64,000 nucleotides of DNA from Cryomorphaceae bacterium (lineage in GTDB: Bacteria > Bacteroidota > Bacteroidia > Flavobacteriales > UBA7430). Below are positions 1 to 40,181 of this stretch, in pieces (the first letter of the stretch is position 1; each line of letters opens with the position of its first letter). The notes below the pieces were generated by a model. It was not told the origin of the DNA. It did no database searches and saw only the letters and a list, made by a program, of their open reading frames with translations. The position numbers and the translations under genes are program-made. The DNA lies in NCBI GenBank assembly GCA_019649675.1, contig BOWN01000001.1, positions 62,001 through 126,000 of the forward strand, written 5' to 3'.

Positions 1-668
1 TCAAGAACAACAGACATATTAGCATCTGAGGATGAAATCTGAGTATGAGTAAACCACAGGTCGCAACTTGCTATACATGAACCATCATCTGCGTTTGCTT
101 CTGTATTATAATTGGATGCTGTCAAATCTGTGCATCCAAATACAACAGGAATACATGAACCATCATCTGAGGTTGCATCTTGGTTATAATTAGAAGATGT
201 TGGATCAGTGCAACCTAATATTGCTGTACAATTTAATTCGGAAGAAGCAGCTATTACAGGCAATTGACCATTAGCTGTAAAAGAATTAATTCCAGCAAAG
301 GTTAATTCTAAATCATATAACGTAGTACCATCTACTAATTGAAAAGTTAACTCTTGACCAGCAGAAGCTCCATCTAATTCAGGTGTTGCAGTATCATCTC
401 CCCAAACTGCTAGGGATTGCTGACCGCCTATTAAATCAGCTGTGGCGACAGATGCACTACCTACTATTAATCCATCAGGAGAAAAAGCAACAAGGTATGG
501 AGCATCAGAATCAATTGGAAGAGCATCAATTGCACCTGAGGTAAAAAACACTGTCATATTAGAACCAGTATTTCCTGTAAATTGATTAGGAAGATCACAC
601 TGAGCAGTAGTTTGCTTGGTCGAGCAAACAAAAATTAATAAAATAAGATATGATATAATTTTTTTCAT
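1..668 (-). CDS. Secreted modular protein (N-terminal part; runs off the window)
   Basis: The start at 668 gives an N-terminal signal peptide (MKKIISYLILLIFVCSTKQT, cleavage near TTAQ|CD). The following ~95 residues contain TGSNMTVFF and SLAVWGDDTATPELDG. They match a domain (module A) repeated in the proteins at 701-1245, 26152-28121 and 33840-35515. Two cysteine modules follow, GCTDPTSSNYN..DDGSC and GCTDLTASNYN..DDGSC. The reading frame is open to base 1, so the C-terminus, where a T9SS sorting signal would be expected, is missing. I infer a type IX secretion substrate on the cell surface. I do not recognise a function. The next gene on the same strand (701-1245) is a relative, so the two may be co-transcribed. 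Confidence 0.75.
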   Translation of the reverse strand, partial: MKKIISYLILLIFVCSTKQTTAQCDLPNQFTGNTGSNMTVFFTSGAIDALPIDSDAPYLVAFSPDGLIVGSASVATADLIGGQQSLAVWGDDTATPELDGASAGQELTFQLVDGTTLYDLELTFAGINSFTANGQLPVIAASSELNCTAILGCTDPTSSNYNQDATSDDGSCIPVVFGCTDLTASNYNTEANADDGSCIASCDLWFTHTQISSSDANMSVVL

Positions 669-700: not shown

Positions 701-1245
701 TTACTTTTTCAAAGAGCTTGATGGCTTAAGATCTTTTCGCTTTTTGAGCTTCATACCCAAAACAGCCGAGGCTCCGTCCTTAAGATAAATTGCCATAAGT
801 GGCTTTTGATATGAAACTTCGATTTGATAAATGGAATCATCTTTCTTTTGAGCCATCCATATCATTCTTTCCCCAATTTCCATGCCATTATCAGCCCCCG
901 GCGGATACTGTCCCCAAACTGGCAACATATTAAAATCATTTGATCTCCATTCTAAAGAACCTGCGCACTTGTGTTTTTCCTGATTGTCAAGATAAAAAAC
1001 ACCCACTCTATCACCGGATTCTAAAGAATCACCATCAAAACCCAAAACCATTCCAATAGGTAATGAATCTAATTGTTGTAATTCTTTAATAACAGGATGC
1101 CAAACAGGCAAAACCAAAACAGAATGGTTTGGCCCAGTCTTTTCGAACGAAAAATCTATAGAATCTTGACCGTACACGCCTGATTTTGAGTCAATAAAAA
1201 ACTCATAATAATCAAAAGCATATTGAACCAATTAATCCTTTTCAT
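701..1245 (-). CDS. Secreted module-A protein, frameshift in signal peptide
   Basis: The long frame alone would start inside the protein. Reading upstream in another frame gives ATG at 1245 and a good signal peptide (MKRINWFNMLLIIMSFLLTQ). It joins the main frame near 1170 after a single-base indel, giving ..QAYGQDSIDFSFEKTG. The mature part (~155 residues) is one copy of module A: HSVLVLP, then RVGVFYLDNQEKHKCAG, a W-x(8)-LPVWG core, GMEIGERMIW and a beta-rich end. The C-terminus is short and basic (KLKKRKDLKPSSSLKK) and has no sorting domain, so this looks like a stand-alone secreted version of the domain. Function unknown. Confidence 0.65.
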
Positions 1246-26151: not shown

Positions 26152-28121
26152 TTAATATTGGAGAATACACTCAAAAAAAGTTTTTACTTGATACCCACGA
26201 CCTGGTTCCATGTTACCAATAGCATTGAAGGACCATTCTGGAAGATAAATATTACCCTCAAAATCTTTTACTAATCTTATTGCATCTTGAGTAACCAAAT
26301 CATTGAAAATAATTTCGACTGACTCAGATTCTTCTCTTAAATAACCAACCATATTCCAACCAGATACTAATGAAATTGGATGAAGTTCTCCTTTTGCAAA
26401 AACACCTTCTGCAAAAATATTGCAAGCTTGAGTAGTCTTAACAATATACCCTTGACCTACTTCTAAATCTCCAATAGCGTTAAATTGATATTCTACAAGG
26501 TAAGCTGCACCTTCCCCATTTTTAACAATAATGATATCGTCACTAATTGGTTCAATAATTGAAGCAATATCCATATCTTCTACAATAATATGAGAGGAAA
26601 ACATTGACCAACCAAGAGGAAGATCTATTTGCTGCACCGTAATAGGATTAAGATTGTTCATTGATAAAATACCACTTTGCCCATTTTCTTCAAACTCTCC
26701 TAAAGAAGAAAAATTAGTGTTGTATGAAACTTCCATAGGCCAAACAATACCAGTAGATGCGTCCCAAACTTTCCAAACAAAGCTTGAGTCTACCACAAAA
26801 CCTTCTTGAAAAATTTTCAGCATAATCAGGTGCAATAAAATTTATATTTTGATTTTGCCATTCATAATATGCAACACAAATGTATCCCTCTTCCGTTTCA
26901 TAAAAAAGACCAATAAAGTCTCCTGAACTTATAAATTCGTTATTTATTTCAATTTCTGTATCAGTAGAGATAAAAATTGAATGAGTTGTTGAAGAACTCA
27001 AAGAGAAATTCCAATCTGGAATTGGATACAAAACACAAGTGCCATTGTCCACATTAGCAACATCATCAAAATTTAATGCATTAGTATTTGTACACCCAGG
27101 AATATCTCCTTCAACAACATAATGAACTGTTGCACAAATACTATCACTATAATTCATGTCTGAAAAAAAACAATACTCAATATCATAGAATCCACCAGAA
27201 ATCTCTGGAACTAAATAAGCACTAAATTCATTTGAATATGAACCAGCCTGAATTTCTGAACTATAAGAGCTAACATCAGTACTTGGTAAATAACATAGAT
27301 CCCAACAAAACCAATTTTCAGGTACACTATCGTTAAGTATATTTCTAAGTACATAGACTTCTAAATCTGAGTCTGAATTATTATGTACGGTAAGATTTAC
27401 TTCTAATTCCTGATCTAAAATATTACCATTAATAATTAATGAATCGTATGATAAACTTAAAGAAGATCCCGATGAAAAGGATTCATACAAACAAGTAGCG
27501 TCTTCTACAGTAGCTTGTTGATTAAAGTTAATGGCCTCTGAATCTAGACAACCTAATATTGGTGCTGCAAAAGATTGGGATGTCGACAAAACATGATCAT
27601 CAATACCCACGATACTATTACCTGACAATAATACTGATGTGTAAACTGATATTTCTCCTTGAACAGTTAACGGAGCCCTCCAATAAAAACTCCATGATTT
27701 AGAACCGAAGCCATCCAAGCCGTTAGAGGTATGAGTAATATAATTTCCGCTTGAAAGAAGTTGTGTCTGTATAGAATCAGCTAAAATAATTTCGCCTACT
27801 TTTTGCCCTTCCTCATTTTCAAAACAGGTTTGAAATCCAAACTTATCTATTCCAGATCCAGAAACATCAATTGAAAAATTATACAAATGTCCAGGTATGT
27901 AATATTCACCTATATCGGATATTAAGCTCAATGAATGAGGCATTAAACTTTGAGAGGAATTTACACCGTGACAAGAAACACAGGTATTTAAATTATCACC
28001 CGGTGAACCAGTATAACCAGATGGAGAACCAGCAGAATAAGTTAATGAGTTTTGAGACACTAAAGAAAAAAAATGATCAGCCCAAAAAACTAGTAAAAAA
28101 ATGTGACAGTTGCTTAATCAA
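26152..28121 (-). CDS. Large surface protein: choice-of-anchor V, Cys modules, modules A and B
   Basis: Domains in order: a signal peptide broken by indels near 28060-28100 (probable TTG start at 28121, MIKQLSHFFTSFLG..FFSLVSQ); a choice-of-anchor V domain beginning TYSAGSPSGYTGSPGDN with a CVSCH (CxxCH) motif; a cysteine module (GCLDSEAINFN); a beta domain; a second cysteine module (GCTNTNALNFDD); module A (HSIFISTDTEIE, DFIGLFYETEEGYICV); and two copies of module B (LPLGWSMFSS..GQGYIVK and VSGWNMVGYL..GRGYQVK). The frame breaks at about 26820 in a T-run. The total is ~655 residues. It ends right after the second module B, without a classical sorting domain. Probably exported by the T9SS. 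Confidence 0.8.
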
Positions 28122-33839: not shown

Positions 33840-35515
33840 ATGAAAAATTTTACAACCTTTCTACTTGGACTATTTATCACACATTGCTCTATTGCTCAAA
33901 TTAGCCCAAATCAATTTTATACACCTGTAAATACAGGCTCTAATATGACTCTTGGTATAAATACAGATGATTTAGATGATTTTATTGGAAGCTCCATAGC
34001 AGCTTTTAATGCTGGGGAACCTTATTGGGTTAGAAATTATCCAAAATCAATTTTTCTCCATGGCAATATGGGGTGATGACACAGGGACGAGAAATAGATG
34101 GATTACAAGATGGAGAGAGTGCAACTTTGCAGTGCTGACTACTGATGGTCGTTATCACGATTGCAGAAATAGCAAACTTTAATGGCTATGTAACAAACTC
34201 ACTTGTAGTGACAAATTCGATATCACTTTCTGGATGTACCAATGATGGATTTTTAGAGTTCCATACGCAAGGTTATTCAGCAGACGTAGACAATGGATCT
34301 TGCTCAACAACTATATACAACCTAGATCTTACCCCAGAACTATTTTTTCCTATTTCACAAACAGATAATAGCATGAACATAGGAATGAATGTTCCTTCAA
34401 TCAACCTATTTGAAGGGGGAATACTAGGAACATTTTTTGATTTTAACCAAGATGGTACCTCTGAATGTATAAGTACAACTGAAATTCAGGGAACAGATAA
34501 CGGATCAAATGGATTTTTCACCATTGCAATATGGGAGACGATGCAATAACTGACCCAATTGATGGATTGTTAGAAGGTCAAGTCCCTACCTTTGCAATTC
34601 TAACAAATCAAAACTACGTTATTGCTTTTGAAGCAGTCCCTGATTTTGAGGGGTACATTGCAAATTCATTTCTCACATTTACTGAAATTAATTTTGACCT
34701 CACCATATACGGTTGTACGGATCAGCTTTCTGTAACTATAATCCAGATGCAGAAGAAGATGATGGATCATGTGAAGGAACTCCTGGATGTACAGATGATC
34801 ATTATGTTGAATTCAGTGCTGATGCTGCCTGTCAACTTGAAGGGTCGTGTGAAACAACTTGGCAAGAAGCATACGACCAATTAGAAAATGAATTAGATGC
34901 AGTAAATTTAGAATGCGCTGCCAATGCTCGCTGCCGCCGCTGCTGCTGAACAATTATATAACATTGAATTAGATTATCAGAATCAAATTGCTGCTATTAA
35001 TGATAATTTCGCTTCTACAGAAGCGAATTACCTTGCACAAATTGCAAACCTTGAAGATTCTATTGCAAACTACTCATCACCTATATCCATTGACATCCTT
35101 ACAGGTTGGAATCTTATTGGTTATACATTAGATGAATCACAAGATGCTGTTGCTACGTTTGCAGAAATTGTAGACTATATAGAAATTGTTAAAAACAATG
35201 CGGCTGATGTTTACTGGCCTGAATTTAGTTTTAATGGAATTGGAGACCTAATTCCAGGTCAAGGCTACCAAATTAAAGTAACCAAGCGATTGAAGGCTTT
35301 ATGTATCCCGACACAAATGGCCAAAGAATAGAACTCAGCCCAACAATTCCTCAATGGGTAATTGACATGCCTACTGAGCTTCATCCGAATGATATAAGAT
35401 CGCTTGTTAGAACATTAAACTTATTAGGACAAGAAGTTGAATTAAACGATTCCACAAAGGCTCTACAATAATTTACCTTTACAGTGATGGAACAGTTGAA
35501 AAGAAAATTTATTAA
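33840..35515 (+). CDS. Secreted protein: two module A, Cys modules, coiled coil, module B, T9SS-like tail
   Basis: Signal peptide MKNFTTFLLGLFITHCSIAQ. Module A copy 1 starts NTGSNMTLGINTDDLDDFIG; copy 2 has DNSMNIGMNVPSINLFEGG and FFTIAIWGDD. Degenerate and regular cysteine modules follow (FCNYNPDAEEDDGSC, GCTDDHYVEFSADAAC). An Ala/Glu-rich coiled coil comes next (EAYDQLENELDAVNL to LAQIANLEDSIANY), then one module B (LTGWNLIGYTLDESQ..GQGYQIKV). The tail PNDIRSLVRTLNLLGQEVEL..DGTVEKKIY resembles a Bacteroidota T9SS C-terminal domain. Frame breaks lie near 34060, 34130, 34240, 34537, 34725, 34925, 35285 and 35465. The total is ~559 residues. Function unknown; surface location inferred. Confidence 0.78.
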
Positions 35516-35567: not shown

Positions 35568-38247
35568 ATGAGAACAATTAAACTCTGTTTACTATTTTTA
35601 TTTATTCCTTTGTATCATTGGGGCAAGGAAACTGTTCTAATAGTCAAACTGAAATATTTATAGAAATTTGGCAAATTGGTGGAACAGGTCTTGGTACATA
35701 TACATTTGAAATTCAAAATATTAGTGGTACGGAGTATTTTGGTCCTGTTCAATTTAGTGGAGCTCCCACCTACTCTTATTACGCATGTTTAGACTACACT
35801 GCATTTCCTTATACTTGGTTTGTTGAAACTTATGACACAAGCAATCCATTTAATGGTACTATTGATATTTATTTAGATGACTCAAATGGACCTTTACTAT
35901 TCGTAGGTGTTACTGGTCAAACAAACCAAACATTCTATTAGACCCTCCAATATATGGCTGTACCAATCCAGACGCTGTTAATTATGATTCTGATGCAAAT
36001 TCAGATGATGGTAGTTGTCAGATTTTGGGTTGTACACAATACGATGCTTTTGGTTACAACCCTAATGCTAACATAGATGATGGTAGTTGTATACCTTTTA
36101 TGCTGGATGTATCGATAATGGTTCTATGATAAACGGCTCGGACAAGTAAATGATCTTGATAATGATGGATTACCTGCCTTAAATTACGATCCATTAGCGA
36201 ATATCGATGATGGTTCTTGTGTTACTGTTGTAATAGGATGCATGAACAATGCTGCATGTAATTATAATTCTTCTGTAAATACTGATGATGCTTCCTGTAT
36301 TTTCCCATCAGATGTAAGTGCTTGTGCAATTTTTTTCTGGAGAGACTGATGGTTCTGGAACTATTTTAGAAAATGATTCTGACGGTGATGGTGTTTGTAA
36401 TGAAAGTGAGGTAGAGGGTTGTATGGATGAAATTGCCCTGAACTATAATCCTGGTGCAACAGATGACAACGGGTCATGTGCCTATCCAGATATTTTTTTG
36501 GGTGTATGGATTCAACGCATGTAACTTAATCTAAATGCTAACCAAGATAATAATTTATGTTTTTTCCTAATGAGTGCGATAGTTGTTCAGGTGAAAAGAT
36601 GGGACAGGAACTGTTATAAATAATGACATAGACAACGACGGCATTTGTGATTCAAATGAAATCCTTGGATGTACTGATAATTTGGCATGTGATTATAACC
36701 AAAATGCTACAGATGATGATGGTTCATGCATTTACCCAGAGCATATTACAACTGTAATGGAGAATGTGTTAATGATAATAATAATAACCAAATATGTGAT
36801 GAATTAGAAATATTTGGCTGTATGACAAATTCTGCATGCAACTATAATGAATATGCAAATATTAACGATGGAGTTGCTATTTTGCACAACAGTATTATGA
36901 TTGTGATGGTGATTGTTTATATGATATAGATAATGATGGGATATGTGACCAACTTGAAAGTGAGGGATGTACTGATGTTTCAGCATGTAACTTTAATCCA
37001 TTTGTGACCGAGAAGATGGTAGTTGTGAAAATATCTCATGTTATGGTTGTATTGATGTAAACGCCTGTAACTATAATGCAATGACCATATATCCTGTCGA
37101 AAATTGCATTTATGCATCTAATGTTAAGTGATTGTGCATCTTGTTCAGGAGAAACTGATGGTTCTGGAACTATTTTAGAAAATGATTCAGATGGTGATGG
37201 TGTATGCAATTATGATGAGATTACTAGGTTGTACTGATGATTTACCCTGTAATTATGATGCAAATCCAACTACTGATACTGATAATTCACTTTTGTAACT
37301 ACTCTACAGATCTGGATGATTGCGCAACTTGTTCTGGTGAAACAGATGGAACCGGAACGATTGTGGATAATGATACCGATAATGATGGTGTTTGTAATTC
37401 TAATGAAATAATTGGATGTAATGATGTTTTAGCCTGCAATTACAATCCTTTATCTACAGATGAAGGTGCATGTAATTTCGCATTAGAATACTACGATTGT
37501 GATGGAAATTGTCTGAATGACAGTGACGACAATTCAATTTGTGACGAATTTCAAGTTGATGGTTGTTCAGATCCAGATGCATGCAACTATAACGAAGATG
37601 CAAATGTAAACGATGGCAGCTGTGAATTTCCTCAAGAATACTACGATTGCTTTGGAAACTGTATAAACGACTCAGACCTAAATGGAATTTGTGATGAATT
37701 AGAAGTAAGCGGATGTACAGACTCAGAAGCCTGTAACTATAACGCCAATGCTACAATGGATAACGGAACTTGTGAGTACTTAGAAGTTACATTAGAATAC
37801 AATAATTTATCATCATCATTAGAAGCTATTTCTAACGCTTCATTAGCAACATACCAATGGAATGTCAACGGAGAAAATACCAATATCAACTCTAATCGAT
37901 TAAATCCTTTTATAAATGGTCTTTACACAGTAAGTGTTTATGATGAAGAAAACGATTGCTGGGGTGTAGCATCATATAACATAAATGACGTATCTATTAA
38001 TGTAGTTAGCTCCGACATAAAGATATTCCCAAATCCAGCGCACAACACTCTACACATTAAATCAAAACTAAACAACCATAACAAAACAATAGAAGTCTAT
38101 AATTACTTAGGAAAATTGCTTGATGTATTACAAAATGAGAATTCACACTATACGCAAATTGATGTCTCAAAATTATCCTCGGGGATTTACATTATAAAAC
38201 TTAAATCAGAAGATTTTATTTTACAAAAAGAATTTATAAAATATTAA
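35568..38247 (+). CDS. Giant Cys-repeat surface protein with T9SS type A sorting domain
   Basis: ATG 35568 gives MRTIKLCLLFLFIPLVSLGQ|G after a frame correction near 35615. An N-terminal beta domain (~100 residues, GTYTFEIQNISGTEYFGP) is followed by about a dozen cysteine modules (35946-37770). These alternate with spacers of two types: CATCSGETDGTGTI..DTDNDGVCNSNE and EYYDCDGNCLNDSDDNSICD. A short Ig-like part (YQWNVNGENTN) leads to a T9SS type A sorting domain: IFPNPAHNTLHIKS, IEVYNYLGKLL, DVSKLSSGIYIIKL. At least ten indels break the frame before 37240; the last 336 residues are open. The total is ~893 residues. Probably an extended, disulfide- or Ca-stabilised stalk or adhesin. Confidence 0.82.
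35946..37770 (+). repeat. Tandem cysteine modules with CSGETDG and YYDCDGNC spacers
   Basis: About 12-13 modules of the form G-C-x-(D/N)-x3-(A/L)-x-N-Y-(N/D)-x2-A-x2-(D/N)-(D/N)-G-(S/T)-C. Spacers contain DNDGVC or DNDGIC, like Ca-binding thrombospondin-3 motifs. At DNA level, 36336-36401 and 37144-37210 are nearly identical (about six differences in 66 bases). Confidence 0.85.
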
Positions 38248-38248
38248 T

Positions 38249-40181
38249 TCATCGTTGTTTTAACAAGACTTCCATTTTAGACTGCAAAGATTCCCATTCA
38301 TACATCTGTTCATCTAATTCACCTTTTATCTTCTCGTATTTAGCAAAAAAATCTGAATCAGACATAAAAGTATCAGCCTTAATCGGATTCTGGAGGTCTT
38401 GATCATATTGTTCAATAAAGCCTTCTAACTCTTCAATTCTTCGCTCTATTTTAGAAATTTGATTGCTCATTTTTTTGATTTCCTTCTCAAGACGTTTTTT
38501 ATCTGACCTATCCATAGGTGTTTTAAGCTCTTTTTCATGAGATCTTGAGCGAATTTCCACATCACGCATGGATTCTGTCTTTCTAAATCTTAAATAATCA
38601 TTAATATCACCTAAATGCGTTTTAATCTGTCCATCTCTAAATTCAACAACCTTATTGGTTAAACCTATTAAGAAATCTCTGTCATGAGATACGATAATAA
38701 CTGTTCCTTTATACAACTTCAATGCATTTTTCAATACTTCTTTTGACACCATATCCAAATGATTAGTTGGCTCATCAAGAATTAAAAAATTCGAAGATTG
38801 CAATAACATTTTACAAAGTGCCAATCTTGATCGCTCACCTCCAGATAATACTGCTACCTTTTTTTCCACATCATCGCCACTAAATAAAAAAGAACCCAAC
38901 ATATCTCTAGATCTTAGTCTCAATTCGTCATCAGCAACATCTTCAATGACATCAATAACTCTTTTTTTGAGGATCTAATAACTCAGCTTGATCTTGAGCA
39001 AAATAACTCATATCAACATTATGACCAAGTTTAATTAATCCCTGATAAGATACGGTTTCAGTTAAGCATTTCAACAAAGTTGTTTTTCCCTGACCATTCT
39101 GACCCACGAAAGCTAAGCGATCGCCACGATCAATTTGAAAATCAAAATTTTGAATTACTTTTTTGTCACCATAAGATTTTGATAACTGTTCAATCTCTAC
39201 AATTATTTTTCCGGGTTTTTTTGACTCTGGGAAAGAAAAGTGTATCTTTTTAGCTAATACAGCATCCACTTCTACACGTTCCATTTTATCGAGTTTCTTA
39301 ATTAAGCTTTGTGCAAATGCTGCTTTACTTGCTTTATATCGAAATTTATCAATAAGATCTACTGTTTGTTTAATTTCTTTATCTTGATTTTTTTTAATAG
39401 CGATTTGTTGCTCTACCCTTTCCTTTCGTAAGTCCAGGTATTTGGTATAAGAAGCCTTATAATCATAGACTTTACTATTTGCAATTTCTATGGTTCTATT
39501 GGTCACCTGATCAAGGAATATCCGATCGTGCGAAACCAAAATAACTGCACCAGAATAACTTTTTAAGAAATTCTCTAACCAAACAATCGACTCAATATCA
39601 AGATGGTTAGTAGGCTCATCAAGAAGTAAAATATCTGGATTACTCAATAGCACTTTAGCCAATTCTATTCGCATGCGCCATCCACCACTAAACGTATCTG
39701 TGAGTTTATTTAAATCATCGGATTTAAATCCCAACCCATAAAGAACTTTCTCGATATGAGAATGAAAGGTATAACCACCAATTAAATTCAATTCATGCTC
39801 ATATTCGCTAGATATATTTATCAGTTCAAGGTAAGATTCCGATTCATAATCTGTTCTTTTCACAAGTTCTGATTGAAGGGAATAAAGTTCAGATTGAAGA
39901 TGCTTAATACGTTCAAATGCTTTTTCAGTTTCCTCAATAACTGTATTGCCTTTAACAAAATCTATATCTTGAGACAAATAGCCTACTTTCATCTCTTTTT
40001 GTAGATTCACAGAACCTGAATCAAAACCACTATTTGAATGAATAATTTTTAATAGAGTAGACTTCCCTGCCCCATTCTTTCCAACAAGCCCAATTCGATC
40101 TCCTTTATTTACCATAAAGTTCATGTCGGAAAATAAAACTCTACCACCAAACTGAACACTAATATCTTGAATTGCTAGCAT
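38249..40181 (-). CDS. ABC-F family ATP-binding protein (Uup/YdiF-like), one frameshift
   Basis: A cytoplasmic ABC-F protein with two ATPase domains and no membrane part; such proteins act on the ribosome. Domain 1 has GKNGAGKSTLLK, SGGWRMRIELAKVLL and LLLDEPTNHLD. Domain 2 has GQNGQGKTTLLK, LSGGERSRLALCKML and LILDEPTNHLD. A C-terminal coiled coil (RLEKEIKKMSNQISKIERRI) follows. The frame breaks near 38960, after LLDPQK, and continues RVIDVIEDVADDELR. The total is ~644 residues. It overlaps the stop of the FAD oxidoreductase gene by 7 bases (same strand). Confidence 0.93.

Follow-up and report, generated by a model that had tools for sequence, protein, structure and literature searches.

The type IX secretion system (T9SS) is widespread in Bacteroidota, and its type A C-terminal tail has been described as both necessary and sufficient for crossing the outer membrane (PMC10202324). 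Type A tails direct export via SprA and PorV, and the secreted proteins can be as large as adhesins of several hundred kilodaltons (PMC10994853, PMC10202324). The proteins described here, which carry a repeated domain that we call module A, resemble T9SS cargo with a type A sorting domain (TIGR04183 / PF18962; RemA-like adhesins) in that they combine a signal peptide, a long modular surface protein and a C-terminal tail, in a genome that has SprA. Module A itself differs from the sorting domain (hhalign probability <2%). None of the T9SS papers found describes it, and searches of open-access papers, judged by title and abstract, turned up no account of module A or of the surface proteins of the clade that carries it.

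Other well-known modules are comparable in kind. Bacterial Ig-like, PKD and FlgD-Ig modules are likewise extracellular beta-sandwich repeats that are mixed with other modules, but Pfam places none of them inside module A, and FlgD appears among the insignificant Foldseek matches with TM-scores of up to 0.34. Cohesin (PF00963) is a similar beta-sandwich of ~140 residues in modular secreted proteins and co-occurs with module A in one protein; however, the two occupy separate stretches there, and Pfam recognizes the cohesin only. Carbohydrate-binding modules and lectins are also accessory beta domains on secreted enzymes. A comparison with carbohydrate-binding folds had been suggested for this domain; such a fold is not supported, with no significant match in the PDB by sequence profile or by fold. 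As a kind, module A is one more extracellular beta-sandwich module, and hence of limited surprise.

The stretch of DNA analyzed here (the window, 64 kb, G000:C1:62001-126000) belongs to an assembly of 1.74 Mb that is 71% complete. The original prediction described an unnamed secreted domain occurring five times in four proteins. Five homologous copies of module A were confirmed in the window, near the places given earlier (Table 1). All five match one profile built without them, that is, without the window row and without the row for the small protein's ortholog, at E-values of 1.7e-33 to 3.5e-11, compared to 0.14 for the best of 1,000 shuffled control sequences. In pairwise comparisons, copies 1, 4 and 5 match one another, as do copies 2 and 3 (E 1e-5 to 1e-11), and these two sets connect solely via the family profile. 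The motifs named in advance proved to be genuine conserved alignment columns, namely G-D-x-I-G-x-F, C-x5-W, xVWGD and G-xxx-GE. With the copies aligning significantly, module A is confirmed, at the level of sequence, as one homologous domain family.

Table 1. Features of the window that carry or accompany module A.
Feature	Position	Strand	Description
Start of large secreted protein	1-668	-	ATG at 668; signal peptide, module A copy 1, two cysteine-rich 25-aa repeats
Module A copy 1	about 225-608	-	N-terminal subtype, flanking cysteines; E 1.7e-33 against profile without it
Stand-alone gene	701-1245	-	Signal peptide and one module A, no T9SS tail; one frameshift between signal peptide and domain
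Module A copy 2	734-1144	-	Divergent, inside the 701-1245 gene; E 2.9e-13
Module A copy 3	about 26653-27019	-	Split by frameshift, then two B modules; E 1.1e-11
Broken gene	33840-35515	+	Signal peptide - A - A - cysteine-rich repeats - Ala-rich coil - B - short T9SS-like C-terminus; ~6 frameshifts
Module A copy 4	about 33903-34230	+	Frameshifted; E 1.3e-16
Module A copy 5	about 34319-34713	+	One frameshift; E 3.5e-11
B module	35080-35290	+	WNLIGY...IVKNNAADVYWPEFSFNGIGDLIPGQGYQIK; module A's partner in many proteins; no Pfam hit
Short T9SS-like C-terminus	35370-35515	+	LNLLGQEVELND...IIYLYSDGTVEKKIY; weakly related to canonical sorting domain

The count of five in four proteins therefore stands for the window, but not as the extent of the domain, and the earlier observation was correct but understated. 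A search of the whole genome with copy 1 as sole query gave 45 places at E <=1, and the profile of alignment A1 (26 members) gave 42 copies at E <=0.001. Among 99 relatives searched, each of the 11 others in the GTDB family of the window carries 13-33 copies. Within the order, the range is 10-35 in all searched members of family f7 and 2-3 in two genomes of family f14, and no copy was found in the remaining thirteen families. When sampled Bacteroidota genomes were searched with A2, a deeper profile of 82 members, module A was present in 38 of 396 (~10%), with 1-8 copies each outside the own genome, leaving 358 without any copy. Named carriers include Bacteroidetes bacterium MED-G21 and Flavobacteriales MAGs or single-cell genomes such as UBA6772, UBA7430, MED1094, CPC1469 and AG-903-K14. 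No module A was found in viral contigs, nor in plasmids when a distant copy was used as the query. The window's own family, for which MED-G21 is the nearest named assembly, is uncultured and marine with small genomes of 13 to about 45 copies each; a single domain is present there up to about 45 times in 1.7 Mb.

Scanned singly against Pfam and NCBIfam, the 26 members of A1 gave a best E-value of about 0.02, scattered over unrelated families. Scans of the window copies likewise gave no hit over module A. The same databases recognize known domains elsewhere in the distant host proteins and none over module A; domains beside it in hosts from other families include the T9SS tail, cohesin, dockerin, BNR, PKD and lysyl oxidase, among others. 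The suspicion that no named family fits was borne out by this profile check, as near and distant members alike fall in no Pfam or NCBIfam model. A profile search of the PDB with A1 returned solved lectins at a weak E-value of 0.024 over 53 residues; this hit is gone with the deeper A2 profile. A match to titin repeats was rejected, because its E-value of 0.0011 adds up two single domains of 7.5 each. Comparison by hhalign further rejected an identity with the T9SS sorting domain (probability 0.7%, E 0.08) and any relation to the B modules or cysteine-rich repeats described below.

Modeling of copy 1 by AlphaFold2 with alignment A2 predicts an all-beta domain with a mean pLDDT of 96.6 and a pTM of 0.89, in which strands at residues 18-23, 39-43, 49-54, 64-71, 89-94, 97-105 and 116-129 are accompanied by a short helix at 25-29. 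The stand-alone protein has 15-30% identity to the other copies in its alignment, and its domain (window copy 2) is modeled with the same order of strands and elements (pLDDT 89.3, pTM 0.85). Foldseek searches of the PDB with these two models gave nothing at E <=0.001; the best values were 0.037 and 0.034, and TM-scores were at most 0.35 among the matches listed. A search of viral structures with copy 1 also gave nothing at E <=0.001, the top match having an E-value of 0.0027, a TM-score of 0.36 and an rmsd of 15. Although small beta-sandwiches can escape Foldseek, the combination of a confident model with no significant match to a solved structure suggests that the predicted structural arrangement of module A is an unsolved one. 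These results support the view of module A as an unnamed, autonomously folding secreted domain.

The strongest motif, WGDDxxTxExDG, lies in an ordered 17-residue loop between strands 4 and 5 of the copy 1 model. In each of the multi-domain subtypes, and among distant relatives, about 70-100% of copies retain its aspartates and threonine; its second glycine is present in 100% of copies, and the motif persists down to 15-30% identity across the phylum. From its likeness to a metal-binding turn, we infer that the loop is a candidate metal site, most likely of the calcium type, that would stiffen the domain. The stand-alone proteins replace the WGDDxxT region by WG(Q/I)YPPGADNG or close variants (WGQYPPGADNG in window copy 2), and because the DD...D motif is lost there, it is not needed for the fold. 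Cysteines are located near each end of the domain in N-terminal and internal copies, and these paired cysteines probably form a disulfide.

Secretion of the hosts is supported by their termini, in line with the description of the domain as secreted. Signal peptides can be read directly in the N-termini of intact hosts (e.g. L056, L121, L122 and L027), and most hosts that reach a natural C-terminus end in PF18962 or TIGR04183, and others have a short variant tail. Such sorting tails also occur on host proteins of relatives and on distant hosts. The own genome contains 42 sorting-tail matches together with SprA (TIGR04189, 1303 bits), which is split by frameshifts. Delivery of module A hosts by the T9SS is well supported, and module A is therefore read as an extracellular building block. 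Many module A proteins end in a short C-terminal tail of ~38 aa (VINVLGQEVNLDD...VLFNVYDDGSVERFID; window 35370-35515; L034, L030, L050), of which an iterated search collected 29. Its similarity to the canonical sorting domain is weak (hhalign 57% over 13 columns), and it may be a reduced T9SS signal.

Module A is found in three main architectures. In one, a signal peptide is followed by one or two A modules, cysteine-rich 25-aa repeats, another A, a coil, a B module and a short tail. The gene at 33840-35515 is assembled from these parts. In a second architecture, a varied N-terminal cargo precedes (A)-B-B-A and a sorting tail; among the cargo are lysyl oxidase, a BD-FAE-type esterase, CotH with a lamin-tail domain (LTD), Kazal, PKD, and a C-type lectin with laminin-G (LamG). 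The A copies after B-B form one clade (SH-aLRT 99) that spans families f1 and f7, and the position label changes 2 times on the tree compared to 13.4 in shuffles. The single row that is labeled otherwise is the frameshifted half of a B-B-A protein. The third architecture is that of giant proteins, exemplified in genome G008 by A-A-repeats-A-20 repeat units-A-96 repeat units and more, in an open frame of 7,517 aa that terminates in a canonical type A sorting tail. The giant protein of G007 has 7,059 aa, and that of G006 has 4,897 aa by the point where the stretch ends. Most module A copies are N-terminal or internal rather than C-terminal, and tandem near-identical copies are present.

The two companions of module A are themselves abundant. 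The 25-aa repeat (GCTDxxAxNYNxxANxDDGSC; window 1-200 and 36000-38250; L141, L144, L145) gave nearly 1,000 matches to its profile in the fetched loci, each covering about two repeats, with about 90-120 matches per giant protein, and no Pfam hit in the window protein that was scanned. The B module, of ~60-70 aa (WNMIGY...IVKDxxGxxYLPEWxFNGIGDxxPGQGYQIK; window 26152-26650 and 35080-35290; L034, L060), is often paired ahead of a C-terminal module A and has no hit in Pfam or NCBIfam.

Within the window, frameshifts disrupt copies 3, 4 and 5 as well as the part of the 701-1245 gene that encodes the signal peptide. Such stretches entered the searches in pieces, with an X at each frame change and no frame mended. 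Frames broken several times, as those of copies 3, 4 and 5 are, could be read as pseudogene remains without present function, but we find this extremely improbable. The SprA gene of the same genome (G000:C1:156291-163444) is likewise split over several frames, and relatives carry intact homologues that include the parts of the broken gene (e.g. L050, L051 and L054); the frameshifts are therefore likely to be sequencing indels, which explain the pattern better. Many other genes across the window have indel-type frameshifts, consistent with an uncorrected long-read assembly, and reading frames in this assembly need care.

The gene at 1-668 extends past the left edge of the window, where two further module A copies and many repeats follow; it is the beginning of a giant module A protein as in relatives. 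Its neighbor at 701-1245 had been described as little more than the domain plus a signal peptide and as probably able to fold alone. Orthologs of this small protein are found in five other genomes (G001, G006, G007, G008 and G009; 63-71% identity to the G008 protein), all of them consisting of a signal peptide and one module A, and the window copy is predicted to fold by itself, which supports both statements. The small gene lies immediately upstream of the giant gene and shares its strand in the own genome, G006, G007 and G008, which are the four neighborhoods that can be read (4/4); the contigs of G001 and G009 are too short to read the neighbor. The near-complete genomes G002 and G003 have no small gene, and their longest module-bearing frames of 1,689 and 1,328 aa indicate no giant. 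On small numbers, this supports a two-gene unit. We infer from the four neighborhoods that the small one-domain protein may act as a dedicated partner of the adjacent giant protein.

Our preferred explanation, to which we give about an even chance, is that module A is a self-standing extracellular beta-sandwich delivered by the T9SS, used for contact at the tip and in a cargo cassette, with a metal-stiffened loop and a one-domain partner for the giant protein. Module A would be a building block of ~120 residues in proteins that reach the surface of the outer membrane, or the space outside it, by way of the T9SS. N-terminal copies, which sit on the tips of long stalks rich in cysteine, would most likely make outward contact, in adhesion or capture, and the C-terminal subtype, in its fixed B-B-A-sorting-tail cassette, would hold varied cargo, several enzymes included, at the surface. 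Counting against this explanation, repetition and varied cargo would equally suit a spacer or stalk unit that is structural and inert and binds no ligand, comparable to many Ig-like repeats in the surface proteins of bacteria. Such a unit would fit the high copy number, the near-identical copies in tandem, and the mixing with repeats and B modules. We nevertheless consider it unlikely, since the loop motif is kept at such low identity across the phylum, copies form position-specific clades, and a conserved single-domain protein spaces nothing. A more far-reaching reading would make module A a beta-sandwich family of new topology, with subtypes tied to their positions that make up a surface-display kit of tip modules, a B-B-A docking cassette with interchangeable cargo, and a separately secreted one-domain partner that binds the adjacent giant T9SS protein; this also strikes us as rather improbable.

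It is doubtful that module A serves as a carbohydrate-binding module or lectin by which secreted enzymes and adhesins are directed to algal or detrital polysaccharides. The domain is joined to enzymes and adjoins lectin-type domains, one distant host has both cohesin and dockerin, and the weak profile hit to solved lectins points in the same direction. However, that hit was lost with the deeper profile and no fold match is significant; moreover, the strongest conservation is in acidic and glycine residues of the loop, the conserved aromatics lie in or adjoin strands and may belong to the core, and many copies have no enzyme partner. A role for the C-terminal copies in T9SS export, through folding beside the sorting tail or contacting the translocon or PorV, with the other copies derived from them, would accommodate the one clade found between B-B and the sorting tail in two families. 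This seems very unlikely, given that 358 of 396 sampled genomes have no copy in a phylum where the T9SS is widespread (PMC10202324), that the type A tail is described as necessary and sufficient for outer-membrane crossing (PMC10202324), and that most copies are N-terminal or internal.

Module A stands out by its scale in small genomes, by a confident fold that lacks a solved relative, by the clade tied to one position and by the conservation of the gene pair. With a named profile, hundreds of surface proteins now called ‘hypothetical’ would be annotated and the cargo enzymes tied to a common display cassette, and the domain is a compact, well-folding target for structure determination. It is also relevant to the attachment of small marine Bacteroidota to particles and cells.

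Several individual host proteins deserve mention. One frame (L028:2507-5401) contains two near-identical esterase-like stretches (IRRATALGNNDCFAGLSTTLVDATYGNGDGAANAAAAGHEDMPGLFPLVTPTPS), which reflect a true duplication within the protein or else an artefact of the assembly. In a small marine genome, a T9SS-secreted B-B-A cassette protein carries a lysyl-oxidase domain (L026:4617-9386). Finally, a protein from a distant member of the Bacteroidota (L079) combines two module A copies with a cohesin, a dockerin and a T9SS tail, placing a cellulosome-type pair inside T9SS cargo.
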